A DNA stretch of 64,000 bases, taken from Balneolaceae bacterium. Its GTDB lineage: Bacteria > Bacteroidota > Rhodothermia > Balneolales > Balneolaceae. The DNA is taken from assembly GCA_017795005.1 (NCBI GenBank), contig CP051242.1:2844119-2908118 (forward strand). The letters are read 5' to 3'. Shown here in pieces: positions 3,237 through 59,530 of the stretch (position 1 is the stretch's first letter; each line of letters opens with the position of its first letter). Under the pieces are notes generated by a model that was given only the letters and a program-made list of their open reading frames with translations, was not told where the DNA came from and ran no database searches. The translations under genes were made by a program, and so were the position numbers.

Positions 3237-3258
3237 TAAGCCTGAGATAGTATTTCCA

Positions 3259-4494
3259 TTAAAGTCCTAATAATACGAATAAGCTAAAAGTAAACTCCCC
3301 TGAGAGGTTATCATCACTCCGGTCATAATCTTTAGTAAAATGTTCACCATCACGGTTAATCCATTTTATTCTAAGTCCCAAATCAATTCTATCGTAAATT
3401 TTTTTCATTAACCCAGCATAAACAAACGGCATGTAGTAATCCTCGGTTTCTGATGATGTTGCTTTTATCAGGTATTCTCTATAAAAAAGAGTTTGAGAAA
3501 ATGTAGCTGTAGTATTTAATTCACCAGTTATAGCTCCTTCTGTACCATTTCCGACATTATGGTATTGCAACCCACCACCCAGTGTAGGAATCAGATATTT
3601 ATTAGGGTACCTGAAGTCTAAGCTTAACCCAAAAATAAGTTCGCTATAGTTCAGGTTTCCAACATTCCTTTGATTCTCCCTGTTGCTATGAATAAAACTA
3701 TATTTTTGATATCCGATGCTAAAAGAAGAGTAAATAATTTCTTTGTAAATCATTCGCTCTATACCAACGTAGAAATTTAGTTCGCTACTTTTTTTATAAT
3801 TTGTGAAGAACTTCTCCTCAAAAAACCTTGACCTATTTGTGGCAATAAAACTTAATTCAGCACTATTACGTCCTAAACCAACAAACACACTCCAGTTACT
3901 AACCTCTCTTTGATATGTGTATTCGGGATCTTTACAGGCTCTATATTGTTTCAAAGCCGTTCTAAAACCACTTTCGTTAAATTTAATATTATCGGGATTT
4001 AGGTTTTCGAAACAATCTCTGAACGCCAGATAAAAAACACCTTTATATCGGTCAAAGTACCGGTTCAGGTTTTCGTTTTGAATTCTTTGAAGAGCATTTG
4101 TGCTTTCATCTTTTGTAATGGCGTATTCAAATGGAGCGGCATAAACCTGTTCCAGATGAATCGGACCTTCAAAAATTCTTTTAGCAAAAAAATAAGATAT
4201 ACTATCCCGGCTGTTCGTAACTGCGTATTTAATTTCAAGTGAGCGAATTAACTCTTTTCCATTTACTGAAAATTCAGATATATCAGAAGCCCCGAATAAC
4301 AACCTTTCTCCATCTTCTCCACTAAAGCTTATTAACCCGACCGATTCAAGTTGAGAAACATTAATTGATCCGTACTCTTTTGTACCGTCTTTCAGTATGA
4401 TGTAATCCTCATTTACCTGAAAAGCATAAATAAAAGAGGGAATAGCTAATAAAAAAACAAGTATTGAAATCCCTTTTAGACTCATCTTCCTCAT
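3259..4494 (-). CDS. Tandem surface-protein paralogue B
   Basis: 411 residues, third in transcription order, 8 bp after paralogue C and 22 bp before A. A signal peptide (ISILVFLLAIPSFIYAFQ) leads into the shared module with DYIILKDGTKEYG, LLFGASDISEFSVNGK and RYFDRYKGVFYLAFRDC. Its C-terminal half is closer to paralogue D than to A: GGLQYHNVGNGTEGAITGEL here matches GAGYQYHNIGNGAEGLIRGE in D, and both end in a leucine (SLFVLLGL, SLFMLVRL). Its N-terminal DNA matches A instead. The gene therefore looks like a mosaic of two lineages. No homologue with a known role is recognised. Confidence 0.75.
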   Translation of the reverse strand: MRKMSLKGISILVFLLAIPSFIYAFQVNEDYIILKDGTKEYGSINVSQLESVGLISFSGEDGERLLFGASDISEFSVNGKELIRSLEIKYAVTNSRDSISYFFAKRIFEGPIHLEQVYAAPFEYAITKDESTNALQRIQNENLNRYFDRYKGVFYLAFRDCFENLNPDNIKFNESGFRTALKQYRACKDPEYTYQREVSNWSVFVGLGRNSAELSFIATNRSRFFEEKFFTNYKKSSELNFYVGIERMIYKEIIYSSFSIGYQKYSFIHSNRENQRNVGNLNYSELIFGLSLDFRYPNKYLIPTLGGGLQYHNVGNGTEGAITGELNTTATFSQTLFYREYLIKATSSETEDYYMPFVYAGLMKKIYDRIDLGLRIKWINRDGEHFTKDYDRSDDNLSGEFTFSLFVLLGL

Positions 4495-4502
4495 TTATAC
4501 AA

Positions 4503-5639
4503 TTAGTATTCAAGATTTTTATATCGAAAAAACAGGCCAAAGAAAAAATCCTGATCGAAATTAAAATCAATATTATTTTCGCTTTTTAGATCGGAATAAT
4601 TAAGCCTTTTTATCGTATCCAGAGAAATTCCTACCTCAAATTTCTCACTTGTACTTACTCCAAGGTTTAAACCAACTGTTATTGAGGCATATTTTTTTGT
4701 ATCCAAACCTCGAATATTGGTATGATAATTCAACCCTGAATATGCTGAAAAAGAAACTACATTTGTATATGTACGATATTCAAAAAGTACCGGAATTTGT
4801 ATCTCTGAGAAAGAAATGTTGTTTGAAGATCTGGATCTGGTTTTTTCAGTAAATTCATATTTCTTTCTCACAAGTCCTATACCAAAAAAAACATTTTTAT
4901 GAGGAAAATTCGATTTATATAAAAGCTTTAAATGGCTCTCTGAACTTTCATTGTATTCATAATCATTTACCCCATCATAAATAGCGGTTATTTTTGAATT
5001 AGATGTACCTAGAGAAAACTCAAGTTCATTATGGCTGTCCTTTTCCTTTCCAATGTTGTTAACCTCATATTCTGGGTTTATACACAAATTATATTCTTCA
5101 ACAGCAGTAATAAATTCTGAAAGCTTGAATTCAATTCTGTCTGTTCTTATTCCTTCTTCACAATCGATGAATGCCAGATAAAAAGTGCCTTTATAATTAT
5201 CAAAATAAGTTGGTCCGAAATTTGAAGGGTTTTTAATTCTTTGAAGACCATTTGATTCTTCATCTTTTGTTAAGGCATAATCAAAAGAAGCACCAAATAC
5301 TTCGTGTAACTTCACACTTCCTTCTATCAGTTTTTTTGTAAAAAATATCCCTTCTTTTTTCTCTTCATTATTTACATAATAGCTGATATTCTCAGAGAGT
5401 ACTTCATTTACTCCGTCAATGGAAAAACCACCTATGTCTGATGCACCATAGATTGTTTGGTTACCGTCACCCATACTAAAAATTATAGTTCCTGAACTTT
5501 TGAGCCCTTTTGTATCTATGCTCCCCATTAGTTTAGAGCCCTCTTCAGCTATTACATATCCAGGATTAGCCGCTTGAAATGCATTGCTATCTGCAACCGC
5601 TAAAAAAATAATTAGGACTGATAAATAAATCTTCTTCAT
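4503..5639 (-). CDS. Tandem surface-protein paralogue C (divergent)
   Basis: The most divergent and shortest member, 378 residues. The signal peptide is LSVLIIFLAVADSNAFQ. The N-terminal module is recognisable (GYVIAEEGSKLMGSIDTKGL, YGASDIGGFSIDGV, SVKLHEVFGASFDYALTKDE, NGLQRIKNP, YKGTFYLAFIDCEEGI) but the DNA shows no long identical blocks with the others. The C-terminal half has regular beta-type segments and ends FFGLFFRYKNLEY, so the aromatic residue is also terminal here. The order in the array is D-C-B-A with small gaps, so one transcript is likely. Because it keeps the cysteine of the FxDC motif and the GASD motif, those residues are good candidates for what matters in the module. Confidence 0.72.
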   Translation of the reverse strand: MKKIYLSVLIIFLAVADSNAFQAANPGYVIAEEGSKLMGSIDTKGLKSSGTIIFSMGDGNQTIYGASDIGGFSIDGVNEVLSENISYYVNNEEKKEGIFFTKKLIEGSVKLHEVFGASFDYALTKDEESNGLQRIKNPSNFGPTYFDNYKGTFYLAFIDCEEGIRTDRIEFKLSEFITAVEEYNLCINPEYEVNNIGKEKDSHNELEFSLGTSNSKITAIYDGVNDYEYNESSESHLKLLYKSNFPHKNVFFGIGLVRKKYEFTEKTRSRSSNNISFSEIQIPVLFEYRTYTNVVSFSAYSGLNYHTNIRGLDTKKYASITVGLNLGVSTSEKFEVGISLDTIKRLNYSDLKSENNIDFNFDQDFFFGLFFRYKNLEY

Positions 5640-5674
5640 ATATAATTTCCCGAGTGGACAGTTTAATTAAATCC

Positions 5675-6910
5675 CTAAAGTCTGACCAGCATAAAGAGGG
5701 AAAAGTTAATCTCGTCAGATAGTTTATCATCACTTTGATCATAATCCTTAGTAAAGTACTCCCCTGTTCTGAAAGTCCATTTTATTTTTGCCCCTAAATC
5801 TATTCTCATATGTATGCTTCTACTTAGCCCCATATAAAAAAATGGCGTCGCATAATCTTGTCTTTCTTCATTTACTGGTTTTAAAGTATATGTCGTATAG
5901 GTTTGATTACCGTTAAAGGTATTTGTTGTATATAATTCCCCTCTGATTAGCCCTTCTGCACCATTACCAATGTTGTGATACTGATATCCTGCACCTAAAA
6001 TTGGGATTATATATTTATTCGGGTACTTGAAATCGATACTTAACCCTAAAATTATTTCGCTGTACTCCAGTTTACCTACATTTCTCTGGTCTTCACTGTT
6101 CTCATGTACAAAATTGTATCTCTGATATCCTATACCAAGTGAAGCAAATATCATCTCTTTGTAAAGCATTCTTTCAAGTCCGACTTGAAAATTTAGTTCG
6201 CTGCTGTTTTTGTAATTGGAAACAAAATTATCTTCTATAAATCTGTTTTGGCTAAAAACTGTAAAATCCAATTGGGTATTATTTCTTCCAAGACCAAAAG
6301 ACACTCTCCAATTTTTCATTGTTTTCTGATAATAATAATCAGTGTCTTTACACGCCCAGTATTGCTTCAGAACATCAAGAAATGCCTCCTCTGTAAAACT
6401 TATATTATCTGTTGTAATGGCTTTCTGACAATCTCTGAATGCAAGATATAAGACTCCTTTATACCTATCGAAATAGCGATTTACATTTTCATTTTCATTC
6501 TGAATCCTTTGAAGAGCAGTTGTGTTTTCTTGTTTAGTAATCGCATATTCAAAAATAGTAGCATATACCTTTTCTAAATGAATGGGACCTTCAAAAATTC
6601 TTTCAGCAAAGAAAAAAGCAACACTATCCCGACTGTTAGTAACAGAATATTCGATTTCAAGGGAGCGAATTAATTTTTTTCCATTTACTGAAAACCCGGA
6701 TAGATCAGAAGCGCCGAATAGTTGGGATTGGGAATTCTCTTTTTGAAAAATAACAACCCCTTCATCTTCCAACTCTGAAATATTTATAGTTCCCGTTTCT
6801 CTGGTCCCGTCTTTAAGAATAATATATCCCAAATCCTGGGTTTGATAAGCAAGTAGTGTAACCAGGTTTGTTGTTAGCAGAGATATAAAAAGTGTGAGAA
6901 ATAATTTCAA
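5675..6910 (-). CDS. Tandem surface-protein paralogue D (first gene of array)
   Basis: 411 residues and the first gene of the minus-strand array, so its promoter should lie between 6911 and about 6972. A signal peptide (LFISLLTTNLVTLLAYQ) precedes the module with GYIILKDGTRETGTINISEL, LFGASDLSGFSVNGKKLI, NSRDSVAFFFAERIFEGPIH and YLAFRDC. Two neighbouring cysteines (FRDC and YWACKD) are shared with A and B and may form a disulphide near the module boundary. The C-terminal half resembles B. The left copy of a 39-bp repeat begins 63 bp upstream of the start codon. On the minus strand that hairpin has a T-rich tail, so it would insulate the array from transcription arriving from nrdJ. Confidence 0.75.
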   Translation of the reverse strand: MKLFLTLFISLLTTNLVTLLAYQTQDLGYIILKDGTRETGTINISELEDEGVVIFQKENSQSQLFGASDLSGFSVNGKKLIRSLEIEYSVTNSRDSVAFFFAERIFEGPIHLEKVYATIFEYAITKQENTTALQRIQNENENVNRYFDRYKGVLYLAFRDCQKAITTDNISFTEEAFLDVLKQYWACKDTDYYYQKTMKNWRVSFGLGRNNTQLDFTVFSQNRFIEDNFVSNYKNSSELNFQVGLERMLYKEMIFASLGIGYQRYNFVHENSEDQRNVGKLEYSEIILGLSIDFKYPNKYIIPILGAGYQYHNIGNGAEGLIRGELYTTNTFNGNQTYTTYTLKPVNEERQDYATPFFYMGLSRSIHMRIDLGAKIKWTFRTGEYFTKDYDQSDDKLSDEINFSLFMLVRL

Positions 6911-46206: not shown

Positions 46207-48738
46207 TCATTTTACTACTAAATTTACAATTCGGCCCGGTACAAAGATCTCCTTCACTAGATTCCCTTCCAATAAGTATTTAGCAACGTTCTCTTCACCT
46301 TTAGCCATGTCTAGTACAAAGTCTTTGTCTTTAGCCTTGTTAGCTGGTACGTAAATATCGGCACGTACTTTTCCGTTCACCTGAACTGGATACATAATTT
46401 CATCTGCCTTCAGGTATTCTTCATTGAACTCCGGCCATTTTGTATAAGCGATTGAATCTGCTTCTCCAAGTTTACTCCAAAGTTCTTCCGCTAAATGAGG
46501 TGCATAAGGAGAAAGCAACTGCACAAACGGCTTTGCGATTGAAACCGGCACCGTATCCCACTGATTAGCTTCATTCACAAAAATCATCATTGCTGAAATG
46601 GCGGTATTAAATCTCATTTCTTCAATGTCTTCTGTTACTTTTTTAATAGCTTCATGAAGCACTTTTAATTGATCTTTAGAAGCTTCCATTTCCTTTACTT
46701 CAGTCTTTAAATCACCTGATCCTTCTTCAATCAGCAATCTCCACACACGGTTCAGGAATCGATTTACACCATCCACCCCTTTTGTACTCCAGGGTTTAAC
46801 TTGTTCCAAGGGGCCCATAAACATTTCATATAATCGAAGTGAATCAGCACCAAACTGTTCGATCACATTATCGGGATTGATCACATTTCCGCGGCTTTTA
46901 CTCATTTTATATGCTCTGGCTTCCACTTTTTTACCTGAGGCTTTTTCCACAAAATGATCTCCTTTTTTCTCTACTTCTTCTTCCGAAAGTTTTCTTCCAT
47001 CTTCAGAAGTATATTCCATCTCACCGAGAATCATCCCTTGGTTTACGAGCTTTTTAAAAGGTTCTTTAGTTGAAACCACTCCAAGATCAAACAATACTTT
47101 ATGCCAAAAACGGGCATATAACAAGTGAAGTACTGCATGCTCTGCTCCACCCACGTATAAATCCACAGGCATCCAGTATCTTTCATAGTCAGGGTTAACC
47201 GGACCTCCATCCCAATCCGGTGAAATATATCTCAGATAGTACCAGCAGGAACCTGCCCACTGAGGCATGGTATTAGTTTCCCGTAACGCAGATTTCCCGG
47301 TTTCGGGATCATTGGTATTCACCCAATCAGTAGCGTTTGCAAGTGGTGGTTCACCATCACCTGTCGGCTGATATTTATCCACTTGCGGAAGCTCCAACGG
47401 AAGCTCACTTTCTAAAACAGCTTTAGCTTCTCCATCCACATGAATAATAGGAAAAGGTTCACCCCAGTACCGTTGACGCGAGAACAACCAGTCTCTCAAT
47501 TTATAATTCACGGCTTTGGTTCCGGCTCCCTTCTCTTCCAGCCATGCAATAATTTTCTTTTTCGCCGGTGCAATATCCAGTCCATTCAGAAAGTCGCTGT
47601 TAATCGCGACTCCTTCCCCGGTATAAGCTTTTCCTTCAAAACCTTCTTCAGGTTGTACAGTTCGTATAATTGAAAGATCAAATTTCTCTGCAAATTCCCA
47701 GTCACGCTCGTCCTGACCCGGAACCGCCATAATAGCACCGGTTCCGTAACTCACCAATACATAGTCAGCTATCCAGATCGGAATCTCTTTTCCATTCGCC
47801 GGGTTGATGGCGTAAGCACCTGTAAAGACTCCTGTTTTCTCTTTATTGAGTTCCTGACGATCTAAATCCGATTTTAACGAGGCGGCTGACTGATATTCTC
47901 CAACGGTATCTTTCTGCTCATCTGTTGTTATTTCAGAAACCAAGTGATGTTCAGGGGCTATTACCATATAAGTGGCTCCAAAAATGGTATCCGGTCTGGT
48001 AGTGTACACCCGAAGTTTCTCATCAGTTCCGGAAATAGCGAAATCGATCTCAGCTCCAACGGATTTACCAATCCAGTTTCTTTGCATGTCTTTCAAAGAT
48101 TCCGGCCAATCCAAATCATCCAAATCCTGTAATAATCGCTCAGCATATTCCGTGATTTTTAACACCCATTGGCGCATAGGTTTTCTGATAACCGGAAATC
48201 CACCTACTTCACTTTTACCGTCAATCACTTCTTCGTTGGCCAATACTGTTCCCAGCTCCGGACACCAGTTCACGGCTACTTCATCTTCATAGGCCAGACC
48301 TTTATGGAAGAGCTGAAGGAAAATCCACTGCGTCCATTTGAAATAGTTTGGATCCGTCGTATTCACTTCCCTGTCCCAGTCGTAGCTGAAACCTATTGCC
48401 TGAAGTTGCTCTCTGAAACGATTGATATTTTTTTCGGTAGTGATTTTAGGATGTGTTCCCGTTTTAACGGCATATTGCTCAGCCGGTAATCCAAAAGCAT
48501 CCCATCCAATTGGGTGAAGCACATTAAATCCGTTCATTCTTTTATACCGGGCAATGATATCTGTTGCTGTGTAGCCTTCCGGGTGCCCTACGTGTAATCC
48601 AGCTCCACTTGGATACGGAAACATATCCAGTACATAATATTTTGGTTTGGAGGTATCGGTAGGTGTTTTAAAGGTTTTATTTTCGAGCCAGTACTTTTGC
48701 CATTTGGACTCTATTTCCGCCGGATTGTAAGAATGCAT
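46207..48738 (-). CDS. leuS: Leucyl-tRNA synthetase
   Basis: 843-residue class I synthetase charging tRNA-Leu. The ATP-binding HIGH motif is [12 protein letters not shown] (about 51), the editing (CP1) domain has [19 protein letters not shown] and the [15 protein letters not shown] loop with its aspartate, and KMSKSRGN (about 611) is the KMSKS loop. The tail has [14 protein letters not shown]. Length is usual for bacterial LeuS. A 140-bp gap upstream of the histidine kinase contains only AT-rich sequence, with TTATATATATTCTAAC repeats. Confidence 0.97.
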
Positions 48739-48821
48739 TTACGCTTTAACTTTTTATTTTTCTTATGAATTGTCTATTCTGAAAGAGCACTTAAAATAAC
48801 ACTATTCTGAACTCTAATCGA

Positions 48822-49817
48822 ATGCGGATTTTGATTAAATTTGGTTTTATTTTACTTACTCTATGCACGTTATTTTCCTTTACTACTCAAGCTCAAAGCT
48901 CAACTGAACAGGATTCTGGATGGGTGAAAATTTATACAAATATTCCTGAGTTTTACTTAATAATTGATGATGATTTTAGGAATGCAACGATACAACATCC
49001 CGAGGATAGTATTAAACTAACGATTGGTCATCACAAAATCAGACTAGCAGGTAATAACGTTCCTGATAAACAATACAATGTCAGAATCTTTGCAAATAAA
49101 ACTACGACAAAAAATATTGTATTTACTTTTCGAAATAGAAATCCTGATACTTCTTATCCGATATTAGTAAACAGATTAAATTTTAGTATAAATACTGACC
49201 CGGGATCTGTGATCTACATTGATGGACAAGAGGTTGGAGTCGGTGGAGCTACATTATTTTTAAATCCTGGGTATCATACATTTAAGGCAATACACCCGGA
49301 ATTCGGAGCGCTTACTAAAAAAATAAAAGTAGACTACACTTCATTTGGCACGATATCCAGATATAACCAAAATCCTTATCCAAATAGACAATATATGAGA
49401 TTTGTTCCTGGACTCGGCTATCTGTTAAATGGACAATACGGAAAAGCAGGTATTACCTATGCTGCATTAATTGCACTCTCTTATTATGGGATTTCGGTTC
49501 AGAATGAATACAATGAAAAAGAAAAATTATATCAAGAGAAGTTTTTTAATTATGAATCATCTACGAACTATATAGATGCCCTTCGTTTCCGAAGAGAAAC
49601 ACTTGAAATTCAGGATGAAATGGAAATGCTTAACCAAAAAATAACATATACTGCAATCGGTATAAGCTCATTGTATCTAATTACAACAATTGATGGGTTT
49701 TTAAAACCAAGGCAAGGGTATAAAAAAGAATCAGATAATCGACCAATGGTAAATTTTACCGCTTTTTCATATTCAGGTAAGTTTTACCCAAGCCTTTCTT
49801 TAACTAAGAGGTTTTAA
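48822..49817 (+). CDS. PEGA-domain secreted membrane protein, cluster member 1
   Basis: 331 residues: signal peptide ending near TTQAQSS; two N-terminal beta segments (VKIYTNIPEFYLIIDDDFRN); a PEGA domain (about 130-180) with SINTDPGSVIYIDGQEVGVG and LFLNPGYHTFKAIHPEFG; then a C-terminal part with FVPGLGYLLNGQYGKAGITYA and a hydrophobic helix pair separated by a charged coil (KEKLYQEKFF). PEGA domains fold like a surface-layer-associated beta sandwich. The last part resembles the DUF5683 group. The gene overlaps the next one by abutment (49817/49818). Two relatives follow at 50566 and 53881. Confidence 0.75.
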   Translation: MRILIKFGFILLTLCTLFSFTTQAQSSTEQDSGWVKIYTNIPEFYLIIDDDFRNATIQHPEDSIKLTIGHHKIRLAGNNVPDKQYNVRIFANKTTTKNIVFTFRNRNPDTSYPILVNRLNFSINTDPGSVIYIDGQEVGVGGATLFLNPGYHTFKAIHPEFGALTKKIKVDYTSFGTISRYNQNPYPNRQYMRFVPGLGYLLNGQYGKAGITYAALIALSYYGISVQNEYNEKEKLYQEKFFNYESSTNYIDALRFRRETLEIQDEMEMLNQKITYTAIGISSLYLITTIDGFLKPRQGYKKESDNRPMVNFTAFSYSGKFYPSLSLTKRF

Positions 49818-50285
49818 ATGGTGCGACTAACATATTCATATTTCTTTCTGGTGATTTTTTGGAGTTGCAATGAAGTTCCTCAATTTACGTCTACAAATTT
49901 AAATGATCCTTTCAGAAAAGGATTTATACCTCCTATACCTCAGGAGTTAGAAACAGATGTAAATAATCCAAATACCAATTATTATGAAATTCGTTTATCA
50001 TGGAGAATGCCTCTTAATTTGAAAGCAGGTATAAGTGGGTTTGTAATTTACAAATCCAATGAATCATACGATCAGCTTTATTTATTAAATGAACCTGAAA
50101 TAAGATCTTGGGACAATATTTATTATTATGATGAAGTATTTACTCCAGAGGATTCACTTGACTATTATTTTAAAGTTCAGTCATATTTTATTCAGGAATT
50201 AGATACTGTTTATTCAGAACCTGTTTTTGCTAATCTTGTAGATTGGGAATATTTTTGTCGTTTTTGTCCAACAAAAAATGAGTAA
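49818..50285 (+). CDS. Small Fn3-like lipoprotein
   Basis: 155 residues with a lipobox (FLVIFWSCNE). The body has a fibronectin-III-like beta pattern, with SWRMPLNLKAGISGFVIYKSNE and SLDYYFKVQSYFIQELDTVYS, similar to modules in the 728-residue lipoprotein at 51566. A proline-rich segment (GFIPPIPQELETD) sits after the lipid anchor. It begins at the base after the preceding gene's stop, so the two are co-translated. It is followed by a 280-bp gap with no gene and only scattered AT-rich sequence. Confidence 0.7.
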   Translation: MVRLTYSYFFLVIFWSCNEVPQFTSTNLNDPFRKGFIPPIPQELETDVNNPNTNYYEIRLSWRMPLNLKAGISGFVIYKSNESYDQLYLLNEPEIRSWDNIYYYDEVFTPEDSLDYYFKVQSYFIQELDTVYSEPVFANLVDWEYFCRFCPTKNE

Positions 50286-50565
50286 CTCATTATAAATTAT
50301 TTTTATTGTTTCTTAACTATTTCAGTTCCAACTCTAACCCAGTATTTTTATAGTAAGTAATCCTCAATAAATCAGTTTAAATTTTCTGAAAGTTATTTTG
50401 AATTCATTATTAAACGAATAAATAGTTCCGATGCTTATGTAATTGATACTTCACTGATATAAATTATATTTTCGATATTACCCTTTGCTATAACCAAAAT
50501 AATATTAGCTGGGTTGCTGACAGCATTACGTATGCTGACGATGTCCCTTTAAAAAAGCTTTAAAT

Positions 50566-51564
50566 ATGGCATATAAACGAGTTAGAACTTGTCTTTTTAT
50601 TTTTCTTGCGACCCTATTTATTCGACCTTTTATTTTTGCTCAAGAAATAGGCTTTGTTAAATTTGACCTAAATGTAGACTCGGTTTCCATTATCATAAAC
50701 AATGATTTTAATGGAGTCCGAACCATCTCAACTGAAGATTCGATTAGTCTTGGTAAAGGACTAAATCTTGTAAACTTATCTGTTCCTTTCGATAGATTTT
50801 ATGAAGTTTATGTACAAATAATCCCTGGAAAAACTAAGGTTGTAAGTCATGAATTTTCTGAGAAAATCCCTTCTAAATATATTCTGGAAAGAAATTATGC
50901 AGCAGCACGATATTACAATGTAAATGCATTTATTATAACAGACAGCGACTCAAAAATTACAGTTGGTAATTCCACCCTGGGAGTTGGTTTCGCGAAGTTT
51001 ACTCAAAAGATTGGGCTCTATTCGATTTTAATTGAGAACGAAGATTTTGGAACTTCTAGCATTAATTATTTAAATAACGACAGATATTACATTACTCTTT
51101 TTGAAAAGTATACCCGTCCGGAAAAACCAACTGCTCAATTCCTGAGTATTATTCCCGGTGGTAGCCAATTTTATAAAAAACAGATTGGGAAAAGTGCACT
51201 TTTCTTTTCAGGAACTACTGTGTTCTTTGGTGTGGGGATTTCAGCCAATAATTCATATAAGAAGGAGCTACAAACATTCAATGAATTAAAAGAACAGTAT
51301 AATAATACAGAAAACGAAAGTCTCGCGTTTGAATTAGGAAATCAGGTTGAAAAACAACAAAAAGAAGTCCGGAGAAAAGATAATATGAGACGTGCTTTTT
51401 TTGGTTTGGGCATACTAAGTTATTCACTAAATATTTTTGATGCTTTCAAAAGTACACCTGATGGTGGATATAGAAAAGAACAGCCGATTGAGTTTTATCT
51501 TACTAATAATCAAGAAACTTTGGGAAGTGCATCAGTTTCTATGAGATATAATTTTAAGAATTGA
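50566..51564 (+). CDS. PEGA-type secreted membrane protein, cluster member 2
   Basis: 332 residues, signal peptide near RPFIFAQE. It is a diverged relative of the first PEGA protein: its beta domain has KITVGNSTLGVGFAKFTQ instead of the usual YIDGxxVG, and its C-terminal part has FLSIIPGGSQFYKKQIGKSA and a charged coil (KEQYNNTENESLAFELGNQ) between hydrophobic segments. The final residues form an NFKN tail. It lies one base before the big lipoprotein gene, an identical arrangement to the first pair. Confidence 0.7.
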   Translation: MAYKRVRTCLFIFLATLFIRPFIFAQEIGFVKFDLNVDSVSIIINNDFNGVRTISTEDSISLGKGLNLVNLSVPFDRFYEVYVQIIPGKTKVVSHEFSEKIPSKYILERNYAAARYYNVNAFIITDSDSKITVGNSTLGVGFAKFTQKIGLYSILIENEDFGTSSINYLNNDRYYITLFEKYTRPEKPTAQFLSIIPGGSQFYKKQIGKSALFFSGTTVFFGVGISANNSYKKELQTFNELKEQYNNTENESLAFELGNQVEKQQKEVRRKDNMRRAFFGLGILSYSLNIFDAFKSTPDGGYRKEQPIEFYLTNNQETLGSASVSMRYNFKN

Positions 51565-51565
51565 T

Positions 51566-53752
51566 ATGAAATTCGGGTATAAAATAATTTTACTGCTTTC
51601 TTTTATTCTTTTTTTCAGATGCACTACTGGTCCAGAATTTGAAAGAGAAAATCCGTACGACAGAGATGCAAGTTCAGACACACTAGGCTTGAAACAGTTC
51701 CCGGAATCTTTAATTGATAAATACCAGTTTACAAGCGAAGGACTGAACATCAATATTTACCAAAATACTCCTGCAGAATCATTTTTTGGAACTAAAATTA
51801 AAATTCTAAGGAAAAATGGGAATAGTCCTTTTGAAGAAATTGGGATTTATAATTTTAAATCAAGTCGTGATTCTGATTTTATATCTGAATTCTTTATTGA
51901 TAAATCAATAAATGACTATACAGATATTGGATATCCTTTAATCTACAAAATTGTCAATGACCGGAATATTTCCCGCGAAATTGAAATCAATTTCGGACTG
52001 ATTGAAAATCTAAGGTCTACTGAAGTTGAAGAGCAAATAATTATTCAATGGGATGACAGTGTTTTTATGAATAATGGTTTCCAGGTATTCCAAAAAACCG
52101 GAGACCAAATATCAGAATATGAGGAGATCATTGTACCCGAAACTTCGTTTCAAATAGAACCCACCATTTCGAACCTTAGTTCTCAATTTTTCATTGTACC
52201 TTATAAAAATTATGCGGGAGAAAAAACCTTTTTAGACTCTACTCTATACTACTTTACTCCTAGCCCGCCAACTGATCTGAATTTTGAAATAGTGGCTTCA
52301 GATCAGATAAAACTAACCTGGAAGGATAACTCTATCAATGAAACAGGCTATCGTGTTAGAAATATGTTAACTAATGAGGTTTATGAGGTAGAAGCTAATC
52401 GGAATAATTTTACTATTACAGATGAAATTGAAATATCAGATCAAAAATCATTTGAGGTATATTCTATTTTAAATGAATTAAGCTCTGAACCTTCCAAATT
52501 GGAGTTTACAGTTCCTGATTTTCCTTATCCCAAAATATTGGGAATTGAACACCTTACTGAAAGTTCATTCAGAATACTATTTGAAGACCGGGTTAGTTTT
52601 GAAAGAGACGTTTATTTTGATACCGGAGTATTAAACTTTAAGACTTCTGGTAAGAATGGATTCATAGATATTGAAACATCTGGTGAATATGAAGGTTGGA
52701 ATTTAAGCTTGCGTGCAGATTTGTCTTATGGCAGGTATGGAAGCAGATCTATGGAAATTGCAAATCGTCCTACTCTGGAAAAAATAACAACCATTTCCAG
52801 TGGGAATTCTACTACTGCTAAAGTAATAGATGTTCGTACAATTGGTAACACTCTTCTTTATAGTTCTGGTCAAAGTATTTTTTCAATTGGCTTAGAATCT
52901 CTTCAGGAAATAAATTTAATGTCTTTCCCTGAAGAAATAACATTACTAAGAATGTCTAATGATAATGGGAGTGCCTTTGTATCTACTGGTGCTTCAAACT
53001 ATTTAATAGATGTACTTAATGGATCAATTCTGGTTGAAATACCAAACTTACCTGAGACGATATTTGATGCTTCTTTTATTTCAGAGGATTCTAAAATTCT
53101 GTTAAGTACCAACAACGGTTTAATAATCTATACAATTTCTGATGAGCAAACTTCCGGAATATCCGGATTTGAAGCAGGACTTGAATATGAGTTTATTGGT
53201 GATGCCACTCAAACCCGGTTGCTGGCATTCGAAAGAAACGAATCTGTGGTTTATTACTTTAATACATTGAGCAATTTCGAATATCATAACAAAGCAGATT
53301 TAAGTACAGCTTATTCAACACGTCCACCTGAAATCACAAATATTTCTCATTTCAGTACTTCAAATAATACAGCGGGGTATGAGTCAGGAGGAGGAATTGA
53401 GTTTTGGGTTGATACTGATGAATGTTTTGCTCCATCATACGTTTGTGTATATCCAATTTATGATATTTATGAAAGAGACAGAAATTCATATTTCCAAATC
53501 ATTGATATTAAATACAGAATAGTTTCTTCGGAAAATTATCTTCGTCTTGTAGGAAAAGAAAGTTCAAGAAATAACATACATGTGATTGAACGAGAGTCGG
53601 GAAATATTACTATGCAAAAAATAAATTTTGATTCGAATATACTTGTTGAATTTGACGAAGAATTAAATGAATTCAGGTTTTATGATATCAGTAAAGAATG
53701 GAGGTTTACTAATTATGGAGTGTATGAAGATATAGTTAGGCCGGAAAATTGA
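51566..53752 (+). CDS. Large Fn3-like / beta-propeller-like lipoprotein
   Basis: 728 residues, lipobox in LLSFILFFRCTTG. The start of the mature part, FERENPYDRDASSDTLGL, resembles other Bacteroidota lipoproteins that carry a 'NPxD' segment after the cysteine. Two or more Fn3-like repeats follow (for example PPTDLNFEIVASDQIKLTWK and SINETGYRVRNML). The second half (about 420-660) has short repeats of the kind seen in beta-propellers (ISGNSTTAKVIDVRTIGNTL, SNDNGSAFVSTGASNYLID). It is probably exposed on the outer membrane. No enzyme motif is seen. Confidence 0.7.
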   Translation: MKFGYKIILLLSFILFFRCTTGPEFERENPYDRDASSDTLGLKQFPESLIDKYQFTSEGLNINIYQNTPAESFFGTKIKILRKNGNSPFEEIGIYNFKSSRDSDFISEFFIDKSINDYTDIGYPLIYKIVNDRNISREIEINFGLIENLRSTEVEEQIIIQWDDSVFMNNGFQVFQKTGDQISEYEEIIVPETSFQIEPTISNLSSQFFIVPYKNYAGEKTFLDSTLYYFTPSPPTDLNFEIVASDQIKLTWKDNSINETGYRVRNMLTNEVYEVEANRNNFTITDEIEISDQKSFEVYSILNELSSEPSKLEFTVPDFPYPKILGIEHLTESSFRILFEDRVSFERDVYFDTGVLNFKTSGKNGFIDIETSGEYEGWNLSLRADLSYGRYGSRSMEIANRPTLEKITTISSGNSTTAKVIDVRTIGNTLLYSSGQSIFSIGLESLQEINLMSFPEEITLLRMSNDNGSAFVSTGASNYLIDVLNGSILVEIPNLPETIFDASFISEDSKILLSTNNGLIIYTISDEQTSGISGFEAGLEYEFIGDATQTRLLAFERNESVVYYFNTLSNFEYHNKADLSTAYSTRPPEITNISHFSTSNNTAGYESGGGIEFWVDTDECFAPSYVCVYPIYDIYERDRNSYFQIIDIKYRIVSSENYLRLVGKESSRNNIHVIERESGNITMQKINFDSNILVEFDEELNEFRFYDISKEWRFTNYGVYEDIVRPEN

Positions 53753-53880
53753 AGACCTTAATAAAAGACTTTTTAAATGAATGCTGACACATTCTTAACT
53801 AACTTACTTAGCAATCATCACTTATTCACTTTTCAAATCAATATTAGAGTTACTTATTTTTATTCGAATCCACTTGTTTA

Positions 53881-54768
53881 ATGCATATCAAACGAACACC
53901 GATTTTCCTATTATTAATTTTTTTTTCTTCCTCACTCCCTGCCCAAGAATCTGGTTCAGGATCATTACAAATCAACGTAAACCTTCCGGAGCCTTTCTAT
54001 GTAGTGATTGATGACAATCTGATTGAAGCTCAGAAAGTAGATTCAGGAAGTGTATTCAAAGTTGAAACCGGATTTCATTCTTTTGTTATTGTCTCAAAAT
54101 TCGCAGAGGATCATTTTTTTCACGCAATTATTGAAGAGGATAAACTCACTCTTTACGATCATAGATTTACGAATTACCGGATAAATTATAACTCTACATT
54201 TAATCAACTCGAAAATCGGCAAAACCTGTTTATTCGTACAGATCCGAACTCAGAAATTTATTTAGACGGAGAGTATGTTGGAAAGCACACACAATCGTTA
54301 TTACTAAATTCGGGTGACTATACCATTAAAACCGTACACCCTTCTGAGGGTTCATTACAGCAAAGAATTACGATAGATTATGGAGATGATGAATATGTTT
54401 CCAGATACAATATTCCTCAACATGAAAATTCCAGTATTGCAAGTATTTTACCAGGTGCCGGTTATATACTAAATGGTCAGGATCATAAAGCAATTGCTAC
54501 CTACATAACAATGGGCTTATTAGCGGGATCATATTTTACTATTGAAAAAAAGATAACCCGTCAGCGACGTATTTGGGATGTTGAGAAGCTGGAATCTCTT
54601 CAAACGGCATCATTAATTGGTATTGGAGTGGTTTATGTTATCTCCATAATTGATGGAAACAGGAAACCAAAAAATGGCTACCCGGAAAGGTCTTTTATTT
54701 TTAAGTCCGAAGATATGAGCCTTGCTAATACTTCAGTTCCAACAGTCGGTTTTAAAGTTAATTTTTAA
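53881..54768 (+). CDS. PEGA-domain secreted membrane protein, cluster member 3
   Basis: 295 residues. After the signal peptide (FLLLIFFSSSLPAQES) it has LQINVNLPEPFYVVIDD, a PEGA domain with FIRTDPNSEIYLDGEYVGKH and LLNSGDYTIKTVHPSEGS, then ILPGAGYILNGQDHKAIATY, close to LGYLLNGQYGKAGITYA in the first member. The tail is shorter than in the other two. It ends four bases into the convergent LuxC-like gene, so the two share a stop region. Confidence 0.75.
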   Translation: MHIKRTPIFLLLIFFSSSLPAQESGSGSLQINVNLPEPFYVVIDDNLIEAQKVDSGSVFKVETGFHSFVIVSKFAEDHFFHAIIEEDKLTLYDHRFTNYRINYNSTFNQLENRQNLFIRTDPNSEIYLDGEYVGKHTQSLLLNSGDYTIKTVHPSEGSLQQRITIDYGDDEYVSRYNIPQHENSSIASILPGAGYILNGQDHKAIATYITMGLLAGSYFTIEKKITRQRRIWDVEKLESLQTASLIGIGVVYVISIIDGNRKPKNGYPERSFIFKSEDMSLANTSVPTVGFKVNF

Positions 54769-55802
54769 ATTACCTCTTTCCCATCAGGCTTCCACCATAA
54801 GGGTGGCTGTTGCGCCTGACTCAAGAACTCTGTTTCCAGTCCGGGAATCTTTTCTCCTGCTGTATAAATGGATTGAACAGCAGAACCAAATTTTTGTTTT
54901 AGTTCCAGCACTTTGTTTTCATCCCCTTGAATCCAATGCAACGTAAAATCAAGTTCCGGAAATTCTTCACTTTCCTGTATTAAGAAATTATCCAACCATG
55001 CCTGTGGTCTGTCAATGGCTTTATTGTAAGCAAATTGATAAGCGAGTGCTTCAGTTGGTTTTTTGTGTTGTGGATTTTTCAACCAAAAAGATTCTATATA
55101 ATCCTGAAAATGACATTTTAGCTTATTGAATCTAATGGGACTAATTACAAATGCTACTGATCTGCAACCCTGTCCGCCATATCTGAAAATTGCTTCCACC
55201 AAGTCAGTAATTATCTGCGGCTCTTCATTGGTTATATAAGCCATTGAGAACTTGGCTGTACGTATTACAAATTGAGTATCAGAAGTAACAATATCCATAC
55301 GTCTCAATTCTTCTTGTACTACAGGGACTGATTCAGATGAACCTGAGAATAAGACCTTATCAGCATTTAAGTTTTCAAATAAAGACAGTTCGGTTCCATA
55401 TTTGATATCTGCTTTAAAGTCTGATTTTCTGACTAGATTCAGAAATGTTGCGAGTAGGTATGGATCCTTTTTGGAAAGTTTTCCATAATAATTAGCTCCA
55501 GAAAGTAAAGTCCCTAATGCATCCTGAAAACCAACTAGCGGTAGATTACCGGCATGCAGACATAACACTTTTTCTCCGGCTGAGTTTTTAGACTCTGACA
55601 ATCCTGCCCGTTTTGCCCACTCTTGAACATGACCATTATCAATATTTTGTTTGAGTGTTCTGATTTGGAATTTTATATCTTCAAAACTGAATAAACCTTC
55701 GTCAACGGTTTGTTCAATGGCCTTCTTTAGTTCAACATTATCTGGTTGTAACCATTGTTTGGCTGCCTGAGCTATTCTTTGTATGTGATTATGTATGTTC
55801 AT
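54765..55802 (-). CDS. Acyl-CoA reductase (LuxC-like)
   Basis: 345-residue member of the LuxC family, which reduces acyl groups passed from LuxE to fatty aldehyde. The catalytic cysteine is in GGQGCRSVAFVI (about 211), and the domain is that of an aldehyde-dehydrogenase fold. In luminous bacteria this feeds luciferase, but no luxAB genes are in the window, so the aldehyde must have another use. The start is upstream of a clear glutamine-rich helix (NHIQRIAQAAKQWLQPDNVE). It is separated from the LuxE-like gene by a 168-bp gap with a fold-back repeat. Confidence 0.82.
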   Translation of the reverse strand: MNIHNHIQRIAQAAKQWLQPDNVELKKAIEQTVDEGLFSFEDIKFQIRTLKQNIDNGHVQEWAKRAGLSESKNSAGEKVLCLHAGNLPLVGFQDALGTLLSGANYYGKLSKKDPYLLATFLNLVRKSDFKADIKYGTELSLFENLNADKVLFSGSSESVPVVQEELRRMDIVTSDTQFVIRTAKFSMAYITNEEPQIITDLVEAIFRYGGQGCRSVAFVISPIRFNKLKCHFQDYIESFWLKNPQHKKPTEALAYQFAYNKAIDRPQAWLDNFLIQESEEFPELDFTLHWIQGDENKVLELKQKFGSAVQSIYTAGEKIPGLETEFLSQAQQPPLWWKPDGKEVI

Positions 55803-55849
55803 TTCTAAGTCACTAAGAGCGAAAGCGAACCCGCCAGCGTTAGGTTGGG

Positions 55850-55928
55850 AATCTGCAAAATTTCATCTAAGCTTTCAATAAATTTTGCAGATTCTTCGTC
55901 CCGAGAATTCGGGATCAGGATGACAAAG
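55850..55928. repeat. Inverted repeat and REP-like hairpin between luxC and luxE-like genes
   Basis: A 14-bp exact inverted repeat, AATCTGCAAAATTT (55850-55863) and its complement at 55880-55893, is followed by GATTCTTCGTCCCGAG...GGGATCAGGATGACAAAG (55890-55928), with the hairpin CCCGAGAATTCGGG. The second part is of the dispersed 'gattcttcg...gacaaa' kind also seen at 60838. No promoter or gene is apparent here. Confidence 0.6.
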
Positions 55929-55970
55929 ATGCCAGTATTTAATTCTTAATTGAATCAATTTTAATTGATA

Positions 55971-56954
55971 TTAATCCTGGTCAATTAAAAAATTACAGCC
56001 CCGAAGGTTTTGAGGATTCCATCTTCCCAGCACTTTAAATTCCCCTTTTTCATTTTGAACACCTTTATCTCCGGTCAAAATAAACGAACATGAGTATATA
56101 TTTGCCAAATCAATTACACCTATTAACCCTTCTTCACCTGAAGGCATTTCTTCCATCGGATTTTTTGGGTTTCGTACTGTTACTTTCATCCATGGCACAG
56201 CATTAAGCCATTGTGTTCCCGTGCTATAAGCCTGACTTAACAACTCCGTCATTCCATATTCAGAATGAATACTTTCTTTTGAAAGTCCAAACCCATTTGC
56301 CAATCGTTCATGTAAGTCCTCTTTTGATACTTCACGGCGATGAGTTTTCATCCCTCCTGTTTCCATGATAATAGAGTCACTTGGAAGTTTACTGGATCCC
56401 ATTTCAACCAAATCAAGTAAACCAAATGCTGCACCAAAAAGCATTACTCTTTTTCCTATTGAGTTAATCTTTTCAAGTAAGTTCAGATCCAAAGGTTTTC
56501 CAACTTCCAAGAACCGACTTAATCCTGATTTATCATGTTCAATCAAAACATTCAACATCCAAACTAAGGAAGAGTATGGGTTGTCATTATAGCCGGGTGT
56601 GTATGCTAACATTATAAATTCATCCAGCTCATAAAATTCGTTTATTCCATTCAGGATAGATTGCTTGTACATCTCAGGATCAGCAAGATAATGTCTGCTT
56701 CGTTGCATTCCAGATGTCCCACTCGATTCAAAATATAGTTCAGAAGTTGGGTGTTCGTTATTGGTTGTTCGAAGTTCTTTTTCTTTAAATGCCTGGATAG
56801 GAAGCAGTGGAATTTCAGAGACTTCTCTAATCTGATTTATTCCCAAAGCCTTACAAAAAGCTCCATACACTGAGTTATTCTCTTTTTGAAATTCAAAGAG
56901 CAGAATTGCTTTCTCTTTGAACGAAACCATAGTATCAAAAGAATCAATGTTCAT
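55971..56954 (-). CDS. Acyl-protein synthetase (LuxE-like)
   Basis: 327 residues from the ATG at 56952-56954, chosen because it overlaps the previous gene's stop as ATGA (an upstream ATG at 57005 would enter the neighbour by 55 bp). LuxE activates fatty acids with ATP and passes them to LuxC. Motifs include the acyl-adenylate loop SSGTSGMQRSRHYL, GAAFGLLDLVEM, METGGMKTHRREVSK and GMTELLSQAY, all in the AMP-ligase order. It is the last gene of a six-gene operon starting at purD. Confidence 0.82.
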   Translation of the reverse strand: MNIDSFDTMVSFKEKAILLFEFQKENNSVYGAFCKALGINQIREVSEIPLLPIQAFKEKELRTTNNEHPTSELYFESSGTSGMQRSRHYLADPEMYKQSILNGINEFYELDEFIMLAYTPGYNDNPYSSLVWMLNVLIEHDKSGLSRFLEVGKPLDLNLLEKINSIGKRVMLFGAAFGLLDLVEMGSSKLPSDSIIMETGGMKTHRREVSKEDLHERLANGFGLSKESIHSEYGMTELLSQAYSTGTQWLNAVPWMKVTVRNPKNPMEEMPSGEEGLIGVIDLANIYSCSFILTGDKGVQNEKGEFKVLGRWNPQNLRGCNFLIDQD

Positions 56955-57547
56955 TCCCAACAATCTGAAATATACTCTCTTAATTCGGGAATCGCTTCTG
57001 CGCAAGTTAAAGCAAAATACATTTCCCTTTGCAATATGGCACCATTTGTTTCTAAAATATATACATAAAAGCCGGATGGCAAGCCCAAACCAACCGGATC
57101 AAAAGGAATACTATACACCCCTCTTTCTAAGCTCTCATCTAACAGTTTTAGTCCACCATTATTTAATTTAAAGAAAGGGCTACCGGAAAATCTTTGTACT
57201 ACTTTTTGGACAGGTTCATTTGGAGCCCGGGCGGGCATTACTGATAGTGTTACTTTCCCTGATTCTTGTACTGCAAAACTTATATGCGTAGTTCGCCGAT
57301 CAGGGCCAATTTCCGGATTCCTGTAAATTGGATTATAGTTCACATACAAGTCTTTTATCTCCGAAAAATCCATGGTCGTAACGGGGCCACTATAGTTCCA
57401 AACCGAGAATTCAATTGGGATTTCCTGAAAGTTAAAAATAGGTAATGATTCAACAACTGGCGGTTCAAAAGCCAATGAGTACTCTGGTGTAAAAGAATTT
57501 TCACAACCAAGAATATAAACCAGTATTACGAATACCAGCTTTTTCAT
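56951..57547 (-). CDS. Lipoprotein with FlgD-like Ig fold, unknown
   Basis: 198 residues; lipobox in FVILVYILGCENS. Beta-rich, with a C-terminal part that ends in a pattern like the FlgD-type or sorting-tail Ig fold: VYSIPFDPVGLGLPSGFYVYILETNGAILQREM. It then adds two cysteines (LTCAEAIPELREYISDCWE). It begins one base after the upstream OMP-like gene's stop and overlaps the LuxE-like gene by four bases. Function is unknown. Confidence 0.68.
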   Translation of the reverse strand: MKKLVFVILVYILGCENSFTPEYSLAFEPPVVESLPIFNFQEIPIEFSVWNYSGPVTTMDFSEIKDLYVNYNPIYRNPEIGPDRRTTHISFAVQESGKVTLSVMPARAPNEPVQKVVQRFSGSPFFKLNNGGLKLLDESLERGVYSIPFDPVGLGLPSGFYVYILETNGAILQREMYFALTCAEAIPELREYISDCWE

Positions 57548-57548
57548 T

Positions 57549-58052
57549 CTAAAAATAAATGCTGGCTGTAAGTGCGGTTGCAGTATTAAAGTTCACATTT
57601 CCGGGGTTTCCGAACCTGAATGAACCTTCATCTGATACCGTAAGATTTCCTTGGATTTCAATGCCTACACTAAACTTTGGTTTAAAGAAATAATCTCCCC
57701 CAAAACCTGCTCCAAATATTAAATCAGTGATGTTGTCCCCTTCATTTGGCATACCTATTACTGCTCCACCTCGAACTGTCAGATAAGGCACTGCGTCTTC
57801 GATTTCTCCTAAATAATTTTTAAATACTAACCCCAGTCCAAGATCACTTCCCACATCCTGAGCTGAAATAAATGAAAAACTTGGAGCCAATACTACTTTT
57901 TCAGAAACCCAAATTGGAATAAGAAAATCTAACTGCTCCGATTGCAGCGTGGCCGTTAATCCAACCGAACGATCTTCATTATCTGAAGATTGAGCATTTA
58001 TAGTGCTTATTGACAATACTGTAATAGATACTATTAAAATTACTTTTCTCAT
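57549..58052 (-). CDS. Small outer-membrane beta-barrel protein
   Basis: 167 residues. The ATG at 58050-58052 (residue 21 of a longer frame) gives a signal peptide, VILIVSITVLSISTINAQ. The rest has eight short strands with alternating hydrophobic residues and GGDYFFKPKFSVGIEIQGNL near the end. The C-terminus is TALTASIYF, with a final phenylalanine typical of OMPs. Such small barrels (OprF/OmpX-like) often serve as transport or adhesion partners. It is between two lipoproteins in the operon. Confidence 0.72.
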   Translation of the reverse strand: MRKVILIVSITVLSISTINAQSSDNEDRSVGLTATLQSEQLDFLIPIWVSEKVVLAPSFSFISAQDVGSDLGLGLVFKNYLGEIEDAVPYLTVRGGAVIGMPNEGDNITDLIFGAGFGGDYFFKPKFSVGIEIQGNLTVSDEGSFRFGNPGNVNFNTATALTASIYF

Positions 58053-58077
58053 TTTCTTTTTGTTACTAGGGTTAAGA

Positions 58078-58722
58078 TTAATTTCCACTACAAAAGCCAA
58101 TTTCAGGTCCAATTCCTTCTAGACCAGGAGGATTACTTCCCTGTTCTCCTAAAACATAAATATCCTGCCAAGCAAGAAATCCAGATTCTGTTTTAAGAAA
58201 TACACGGTGGAATCCAGGATCAAATTTCCCTCCATTACACTTCAGTCTTAGGTCTAATGTAAAGCTGTATTCGGCCGCTTGTTGAAGCTCTCCTTCAAAT
58301 AATGTAACGCTCTGAAAAGGTCTATCGATTGAAGAGTTAAAAGGAAGAGCAGACTGATTTCCCGACCAATAGGCTGTTTCTACCCAAATTTTGGCTTTAT
58401 CTGGTATTGGTGTGCTAAAACCAATATTCTGACTCCCCGTTACGGGATTAGGGTAAGGTAATTTTAACCTAAAGTCCTCAGGAACAAAACAATGTTCACT
58501 TTCTTCACACCTGCTACTATCTGGTGTTACTTTTGGTGGGGACGGATAATTTCTATTTGGTGAACCACCCCAAATAGAAATCAAATTAGAAGCTTCATCA
58601 GTTATAGAAAGACCGGTTACAATATTTTTACCCTGTGTACCCGGTGTAACTACATAAGGATTGTCACATGAAATAAGTAATGCTATAAATAGGATAAGAT
58701 ATATTGGCTTATTTATCCGCAT
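58078..58722 (-). CDS. Lipoprotein with FlgD-like C-terminal fold, unknown
   Basis: 214 residues. Lipobox in LILFIALLISCDNP. The segment LKLPYPNPVTGSQNIGFSTP resembles a relic of the NPFNP sorting tail, followed by KIWVETAYWSGNQSALPF and FDPGFHRVFLKTESGFLAWQ, again a FlgD-like strand order. Its 3' end (5' on the plus strand) leads into the OMP gene with a 25-bp gap. It overlaps the NHL protein gene by 14 bp. Confidence 0.7.
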   Translation of the reverse strand: MRINKPIYLILFIALLISCDNPYVVTPGTQGKNIVTGLSITDEASNLISIWGGSPNRNYPSPPKVTPDSSRCEESEHCFVPEDFRLKLPYPNPVTGSQNIGFSTPIPDKAKIWVETAYWSGNQSALPFNSSIDRPFQSVTLFEGELQQAAEYSFTLDLRLKCNGGKFDPGFHRVFLKTESGFLAWQDIYVLGEQGSNPPGLEGIGPEIGFCSGN

Positions 58723-59530
58723 AAATCATTAATACTGATTTGTTTGTCAAAACATAAAATAACCCATTCGTTTTTACAACATCTTTAATTACAAGCTTTT
58801 CCGGAAATTCAATTTCTTCTGTATTCTCTCTTGAGTTCTTGATCGAAGTTTCAGTTATCAACCATTCTTCACCTTGTTTGTCAACATATATCTGAGTGGC
58901 ACCTTGTAAGGGATAACTACTTATTTGTAAGCCATTATATGACATCACATGATACTGTTTCGATTTTAAATCAAGGATATACAAATTCCTCCCAACTGCC
59001 TGCATATCGCTCACTTCACGAATCTGAGAAGGAATCTGGAACTCATCCAGTTTTATGCCATTATCATCCACACTAATGATCGATTTAGAATCCTGATCAT
59101 AAAAAAACAGTTCTGCCACATTGTTTACAACCAACTGTGTTGGGCGGATAGGACGTTGTGATCTTCCCCAGGGATATCTTTTCAATGAAGTCAGATATTG
59201 AAAGCGTTTATCAAATATCTGAATTCGGTTATTCCTGTTATCGGATACATAAATTTTTAATCCATTAGTTGCATCCACATCAATTGGAGAATCTAATTCA
59301 TAATCTCCTGAACCCAGTCCTCCTATTGTGGTCACTAAATCCCCTAATAAGTTGAGTTTCAATACTCTGTTTCTACCAGATTCTACAACATAAATATGAT
59401 CCTGAGTAACATATAAAGAGGTAGGTTTTTTCAGATTTGGGTAAAGTATTTCCGGGGCAGTATTAGTTTGAGCCTCCACTAAATTCGAGAAGAAAAGAAA
59501 AACAATAATCAGTGTAAGTATTCTTCTCAT
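58709..59530 (-). CDS. Secreted NHL-type beta-propeller protein
   Basis: 273 residues with a signal peptide (IIVFLFFSNLVEAQTN). The sequence shows NHL repeats: LKKPTSLYVTQDHIYVVESG, RVLKLNLLGDLVTTIGG, SPIDVDATNGLKIYVSDN and RIQIFDKRFQYLTSLKRYP, followed by weaker blades. Propellers like this often bind sugars or proteins on the outer surface. It overlaps purD by four bases (ATGA) and the next lipoprotein by 14 bp, so it belongs to the purD-led operon. Confidence 0.78.
   Translation of the reverse strand: MRRILTLIIVFLFFSNLVEAQTNTAPEILYPNLKKPTSLYVTQDHIYVVESGRNRVLKLNLLGDLVTTIGGLGSGDYELDSPIDVDATNGLKIYVSDNRNNRIQIFDKRFQYLTSLKRYPWGRSQRPIRPTQLVVNNVAELFFYDQDSKSIISVDDNGIKLDEFQIPSQIREVSDMQAVGRNLYILDLKSKQYHVMSYNGLQISSYPLQGATQIYVDKQGEEWLITETSIKNSRENTEEIEFPEKLVIKDVVKTNGLFYVLTNKSVLMIYADK

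Follow-up and report, generated by a model that had tools for sequence, protein, structure and literature searches.

We analyzed a locus of five genes at positions 48822-54768 of a 64,000-nucleotide (nt) stretch of the genome of a Balneolaceae bacterium (the whole stretch is called the window below; the genome comprises 3.75 Mb on one contig). According to our analysis, the locus contains a two-gene cell-envelope module in duplicate together with a lone copy of its first gene, and the membrane protein encoded by the first gene would serve as a platform for its own lipoprotein; we put the probability of this reading at roughly one half. Judging from the sequences, the module is real and conserved, is built from known domains and is apparently undescribed.

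The open reading frame (ORF) calls place P1 (48822-49817; 331 amino acids, aa), L1 (49818-50285; 155 aa), P2 (50566-51564; 332 aa), L2 (51566-53752; 728 aa) and P3 (53881-54768; 295 aa) in this order, all on the plus strand. P1, P2 and P3 are PEGA-DUF5683 family proteins; L1 and L2 are a short and a large lipoprotein, assigned by leader and trees as the cognate partners of P1 and P2, respectively; no lipoprotein stands behind P3. The intergenic gaps are 0 nt (P1/L1), 280 nt (L1/P2), 1 nt (P2/L2) and 128 nt (L2/P3). These calls bear out a preliminary description, made from the sequence of the window, that gave the order as PEGA, small lipoprotein, PEGA, large lipoprotein, PEGA, with each PEGA/lipoprotein pair nearly abutted. 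The alternation as such is found in the window, but P3 lacks a lipoprotein partner and other loci are ordered differently, with PEGA-PEGA-lipoprotein or PEGA-lipoprotein-lipoprotein arrangements.

Co-occurrence of the Gene Pair in Relatives

The family set comprised 52 PEGA-DUF5683 genes (profile E < 1e-17) from the window and from loci L043-L079 and L081; among these loci, which were gathered through PEGA matches, are close relatives such as L068 and L070, and the 52 genes are therefore not independent. The preliminary description had held that homologues occurring mostly without partners would speak against a pair, and this did not prove to be the case; by an automatic rule, a lipoprotein directly follows 39 of the 52 genes, and five more have one behind a run of PEGA genes (after one more PEGA gene in four cases and after two in one). 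The other outcomes were an opposite-strand gene next (three genes), another same-strand gene next (three) and a contig end (two). The three same-strand exceptions were inspected by eye: the gene of L064 does have a lipoprotein behind it, which had escaped the rule; in L076 the leader lies in a different frame; and the third, L074, has its lipoprotein in divergent orientation. In loci rich in G+C, the gene calls are rough. The gap was between -29 and +17 nt in 37 of the 39 direct cases.

A single detector applied to both sets reported a lipoprotein behind 38 of the 52 family genes vs. 25 of 304 other genes (window genes excluded from the control), and the co-occurrence of adjacent pairs in other genomes, which had been proposed as a check, was thereby confirmed. 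Among the 25 control positives, nine were second lipoproteins behind a partner and seven were PEGA genes wrongly flagged (16 from the clusters themselves). A search of 58 relatives with the lipoprotein profile yielded 68 rows; all 26 rows with E ≤ 1e-15 lay at PEGA-DUF5683 loci, a figure that is partly circular, the profile having been built from paired lipoproteins, and in which a single gene sometimes accounts for several rows. The other 42 rows were weaker; they fall mainly in the Fn3 or propeller region and are mostly unchecked. Class-wide, 33 of 164 genomes match the PEGA-DUF5683 family at E ≤ 1e-10, and in several of these genomes the match is confined to the DUF5683 part.

Cognate Pairing

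Trees were compared for 35 PEGA proteins and the first 75 residues, counted from the Cys, of their lipoproteins, in a set that omits genes longer than 500 aa, truncated genes and genes without a directly following leader-bearing lipoprotein. Seven of the 32 splits are common to both trees (mean 0.2 and maximum 3 in 2,000 label permutations), one of which sets off a nine-member P1 clade that is mirrored by an L1 clade, with support of 0.999 and 0.60, respectively. The Mantel r of 0.47 lies above the permutation maximum of 0.27 (5,000 permutations), and none of 1,536 within-genome swaps fits better than the observed partners. The tree comparison indicates that the partners are cognate. Because the trees match and no swap improves on the observed partners, P1/L1 and P2/L2 most likely go back to an old duplication of a pair.

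Domain Composition and Predicted Fold of the PEGA-DUF5683 Proteins

DUF5683 (PF18935) is an uncharacterized family common in Bacteroidota. Its cut-off of 26.7 bits is passed by P1 (31.3 bits, E 2.5e-7) and P2 (34.9 bits, E 1.9e-8; aa 188-293, positions 51127-51444), and P3 stays below it (12.7 bits, E 0.13); the C-terminal part that had been called unusual belongs, in other words, to a known Pfam family. For PEGA (PF08308; cut-off 20.8 bits), P1 (21.1 bits, aa 121-171) and P3 (22.4 bits; domain at aa 115-174, 54223-54402) pass and P2 has no match. The three proteins are paralogues (P1-P3, 33% identity, E 5e-38; P1-P2, 25%, E 8e-15), and their common naming as PEGA proteins holds at this level, but not for P2 by profile. 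Likewise, the motif PGxGYxLNGQxxKA ascribed to all three fits P1 and P3, but P2 reads PGGSQFYKKQIGKS.

The family resembles DUF5683 in the helical hairpin with a PG motif and in a C-terminal strand that often ends in Phe (17 of the 27 rows of the family alignment A1 match at E ≤ 0.01), and PEGA in its Ig-like (immunoglobulin-like) domain (8 of the 27 rows at the same threshold). It differs from the longer DUF5683 proteins without a PEGA match, which, among those looked at, mostly have no lipoprotein neighbor, and from PEGA as such in the fusion of the domain to DUF5683 and in its association with a lipoprotein gene. The PEGA domain is mentioned in a study of repeats that occur in surface proteins of archaea and bacteria (PMC2447325) and is called peptidoglycan-associating in work on conflict systems (PMC7159879).

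The fold of P1 is confidently predicted: the model, based on 18 alignment rows, has a mean predicted local distance difference test (pLDDT) score of 86.5 and a predicted TM-score (pTM) of 0.60. From the N- to the C-terminus, it shows a signal helix, a first beta-sandwich domain (aa 32-99, 48915-49118), the PEGA domain (aa 121-181, 49182-49364), the DUF5683 helical hairpin with helices of 41 and 44 residues (aa 206-246 and 250-293, 49437-49700) and a two-stranded C-terminal beta-hairpin (aa 309-317 and 320-328, plus the terminal Phe, 49746-49814). The last element is of low confidence (pLDDT 49-74 by block), and the monomer model contains no barrel. The first domain resembles the transthyretin-like domain of 5aq0_B (Z 8.6 over aa 33-105), a common fold. 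We claim no fold relative from the helical hairpin, since many unrelated hairpins match (Z about 10, usual for long helices), and the best Foldseek match to P1, a Sulfolobus S-layer protein, was dropped (TM-score 0.17). The family profile A1 gave nothing significant against the PDB sequences (best E 0.13). Averaged over 29 family rows, the bases of the hairpin helices are moderately hydrophobic and the tip is charged and net acidic (5.7 K/R, 7.9 D/E), with 3.7 K/R in the flank before and 3.4 in that after the hairpin.

A simple home-made pattern for ends resembling the C-terminal beta-signal of outer-membrane proteins fits P1, P2 and P3. It fits 34 of 51 family members vs. 17 of 319 other ORFs (window ORFs excluded), some of the latter resembling outer-membrane proteins themselves, and 23 of the 30 DUF5683 loci from the phylum sample. 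In the ORF call of a P2-type gene in a relative (L046, 6367-7179; genome G011), the signal peptide and some of the first domain are missing, and the whole-genome search placed one TGA within its matching frame; it is possibly a decaying copy.

The Partner Lipoproteins

L1 and L2 begin with signal peptides carrying a lipobox Cys (Cys17 and Cys19, respectively), called by a home-made rule that wrongly flags P1 and other PEGA proteins. In alignments with relatives, each Cys opens a leader of about ten residues followed by N-x-x-D (49866-49952 in L1; 51620-51700 in L2), and this N-x-x-D is invariant in the 21 and 20 rows of the two alignments (N29 and D32 in the 21 rows). Conservation is highest in the leader, at 2.32 bits per column; the signal peptide has 1.83, the C-terminal part 1.78 and the Fn3 region 1.72. 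Direct comparison of L1 with L2 gave no significant similarity; what links them is the common leader and the trees with their relatives.

Behind the leader, the lipoproteins vary. The partners range from 135 to 748 aa, and their heads from one short domain up to Fn3 repeats with WD40-type or Kelch propellers. L2 has a putative Fn3-like domain (aa 233-286, 52262-52423), its Pfam fn3 match (PF00041; 18.1 bits, E 0.0032) lying below the cut-off of 25. Its C-terminal region (about 52808-53710) is a putative beta-propeller by comparison of the family profile with WD40 proteins. The term "Fn3-like" used previously for both proteins is thus less certain for L1, in which Pfam detects no Fn3, and for L2 stands below the cut-off; relatives in L043 and L053 exceed it. 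Fibronectin and titin chains are among the matches of the lipoprotein family profile, and WD40 chains are matched by profile A3 with a best E of 7.9e-23; the Pfam propeller matches of the relatives' lipoproteins are below their cut-offs. The family is like other Fn3/beta-propeller lipoproteins in its lipobox, Fn3-like domains and propellers, and differs from them in the conserved N-x-x-D leader and the cognate membrane partner. The idea that L1 is the stump of a longer lipoprotein was rejected: there is no convincing remnant in the gap behind it, where the best match besides L1's own end has E 0.056 over 22 residues.

Distribution Beyond the Order

The phylum sample (296 genomes) contained weaker matches in distant families. 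From the phylum samples, 32 stretches were picked by hand, to which L079 and L081 were added; the ORF calls of L210, L212 and L233 contained no family match. Both PEGA and DUF5683 were recognized by profile in six genes, one from the bacterium's own family (L079) and five from outside the order (L202-L206). A lipoprotein matching the profile follows the gene of L079 and four of the five outside the order (L202, L204, L205 and L206; E 2.7e-6 to 4.4e-33), and none matching stands behind that of L203. Among 27 DUF5683-type or partial matches without a PEGA match by the rule used, a matching lipoprotein follows one (L081); L207, L220 and L221 have a non-matching lipoprotein next, L218 and L231 have one on the opposite strand, and in the remaining ones the detector sees no lipoprotein. 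The lipoprotein profile matched six of the nine distant or divergent partners tried and one of 171 control ORFs, which encodes a further lipoprotein immediately after that of L204.

DUF5683 by itself is widespread, with matches in 47 of the 60 genomes sampled in the phylum, and the best-scoring copies are shorter proteins. In 13 loci (L208, L209, L211, L213, L216, L217, L222-L225 and L227-L229), longer DUF5683-like genes without a PEGA match immediately follow a gene of about 960-1,110 aa, a different recurrent neighborhood. L079 (5619-9180; genome G065) encodes an 859-aa protein with a caspase domain, repeated PEGA domains and a DUF5683-like end, whose gene overlaps that of an N-x-x-D lipoprotein; it appears to be a protease version of the PEGA-lipoprotein pair.

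Genomic Context

The cluster lies in a slot between a minus-strand gene at 46207-48738, which we take to be that of leucyl-tRNA synthetase (leuS; named from its sequence, without a profile scan), and a minus-strand gene for a LuxC-like acyl-CoA reductase at 54765-55802 (Pfam LuxC, E 7.9e-7). We surveyed this slot in 55 loci fetched through the LuxC-like protein, counting ORFs of at least 90 aa. The cluster is present in six of them (L082, L084, L085, L086, L087 and L096) and luxC directly adjoins leuS in five (L083, L090, L092, L098 and L123); the remaining loci have other genes in the slot, have no leuS in view, or end too early. The cluster of the window is accessory, because the slot holds it in some relatives while leuS directly adjoins luxC in others.

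Other copies occupy other sites, namely a MoxR/DUF4350-type cluster and a site at a protein with an LTD domain and a type IX secretion system (T9SS) signal domain. The second copy in the same genome (L059) adjoins the DUF4350/MoxR-type cluster, identified by Pfam; the neighbors of the copies in L050, L068, L070 and L072 are similar, as judged from protein starts without a profile scan. L066 has a PEGA gene amid neighbors like those of L167 and L168 (the large LTD/T9SS-signal protein was scanned with Pfam in L167 and L066).

Rfam has no match in 48000-56000, promoter-like sites are not enriched (23 vs. 27.8 in shuffles) and terminator-like sites number 0. For the five proteins, NCBIfam gave no meaningful match (best E 0.087) and PADLOC gave 0 matches at E ≤ 0.01; the idea of an anti-phage defense system was rejected on the latter ground.

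Several further observations concern the neighborhood. A DUF885 protein (Pfam, scanned in L063 only) is encoded just upstream of the PEGA cluster in L063 (5888-7612); L048, L064 and L067 have a gene of similar length and look upstream of theirs, and the slot of L093 has a DUF885-like gene, again by length and look, but no PEGA cluster. In the window past luxC (55971-59530) lie a LuxE-like gene, two lipoprotein-like genes flanking one for a small outer-membrane-type protein, and a gene for an NHL-repeat protein; L084 and L088 have lipoproteins resembling one of these by their starts at a similar place. At 2019-6910 (minus strand), four adjacent genes of 378-411 aa look by eye like tandem paralogues, each with a signal-peptide-like start, and the end of the first resembles an outer-membrane protein.

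Proposed Mechanism and Alternative Explanations

The co-occurrence, the gene order, the homology of the partners across families and the cognate pairing are observed. The earlier proposal of a two-component unit in duplicated pairs is in agreement with the 39 of 52 direct followers, the four of five outside the order and the trees, but does not extend to P3, which stands alone. The pair probably works as such a unit, a reading that is well supported on genomic grounds. The PEGA-DUF5683 protein would be exported, bear two Ig-like domains and be held in a membrane by its long helical hairpin. The second protein would be a lipoprotein in which the lipidated Cys precedes a short constant leader and the head is variable, with Fn3-like domains and often a beta-propeller. 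Because the leader is constant and the heads are variable, we suggest a docking peptide and a display domain: the leader may dock on its own PEGA-DUF5683 platform, with the head projecting so as to bind ligands or further proteins of the envelope, and duplication would give rise to parallel pairs with different heads. Physical contact, leader docking and head binding, as well as the membrane and the side, are what we infer in this scheme.

A precedent for the manner of working, with no homology claimed, is offered by BamG-BamH: according to PMC12611786, the membrane partner BamG has a groove in which the lipidated tail of BamH sits, and a comparable placement is what we propose for the leader. 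As described there, BamG is a universal outer-membrane barrel protein, whereas P1 is an Ig/helical-hairpin protein of a patchy family.

Several points weigh against the platform reading. Window P3 and the genes of L054 and L078, the opposite-strand cases, have no lipoprotein next on their strand; in L074 the lipoprotein adjoins divergently; and two leader-type lipoproteins, one in the same genome and one in a sister (L167 and L168), have no PEGA gene and stand behind an LTD protein that carries a T9SS signal domain. The model of L2 (pLDDT 36.6, eight rows) is unusable, and the lipoprotein tree rests on 75 residues, with a support of 0.60 for the key split. To these may be added the non-independence of the family set, the circularity of the profile search, the hand-picking of the distant set and the fact that adjacency and co-inheritance are also expected from the copying of a two-gene block.

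The last point leads to the least unlikely of the alternatives, still a doubtful one in our judgment, i.e., that both envelope proteins are needed together without direct contact and the block is merely co-expressed and copied as a unit. Tight spacing and matching trees are equally expected of a linked transcriptional block, and some lipoproteins of this kind do occur without a PEGA gene; however, the pairing of both families also holds in distantly related members of the phylum and at several chromosomal locations (the leuS-luxC slot, the MoxR/DUF4350-type cluster and the LTD/T9SS site).

An alternative that we regard as unlikely places the PEGA-DUF5683 protein in the inner membrane as a tether with Ig domains extending to an outer-membrane lipoprotein, so that the pair would bridge the periplasm or act as a stress sensor, the coiled tip being cytoplasmic. 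The signal peptide followed by a two-helix hairpin in the model, in which the helix bases exceed the charged tip in hydrophobicity, would suit such a tether. Yet K/R residues flank the hairpin on either side and the tip has a net negative charge, contrary to the positive-inside rule for membrane topology, and the C-termini look like outer-membrane beta-signals. These ends bring up another, rather improbable variant, in which PEGA-DUF5683 proteins would be outer-membrane proteins of mixed build: the hairpin would cross the membrane, the beta-barrel assembly machinery (BAM) would take the C-terminal beta-hairpin, completing a multi-subunit barrel or ring, and the lipoprotein would be displayed on the surface.

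That the module belongs to one of the known machines (BAM, SusCD or type IX secretion) is very improbable: although BAM of Bacteroidota couples lipoproteins with membrane proteins (PMC12611786) and two loci adjoin LTD proteins with a T9SS signal domain, the P1 model has no barrel and the BamADGH core is, by the same source, universal in the phylum, whereas the PEGA-DUF5683 family is patchy. No TonB-dependent barrel partner of the SusC/SusD type was seen, the P1 model lacking a barrel and Pfam naming none in the five proteins.

Implications

The preliminary description recognized no described system of this structure, and our searches of the open-access literature, outside which most subscription journals lie, likewise yielded no description of a PEGA-DUF5683/lipoprotein module; in the literature searched, DUF5683 is mentioned only in one unrelated paper, on nematode receptors. 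If the outer-membrane variant were true, the phylum-wide DUF5683 would represent a new class of outer-membrane protein. If the PEGA-DUF5683 protein and its lipoprotein form a complex, as the platform reading has it, they would constitute an undescribed modular envelope system of Bacteroidota, with a constant anchor and exchangeable heads, and would provide a first handle on DUF5683, a family found in most of the phylum genomes sampled (47/60).

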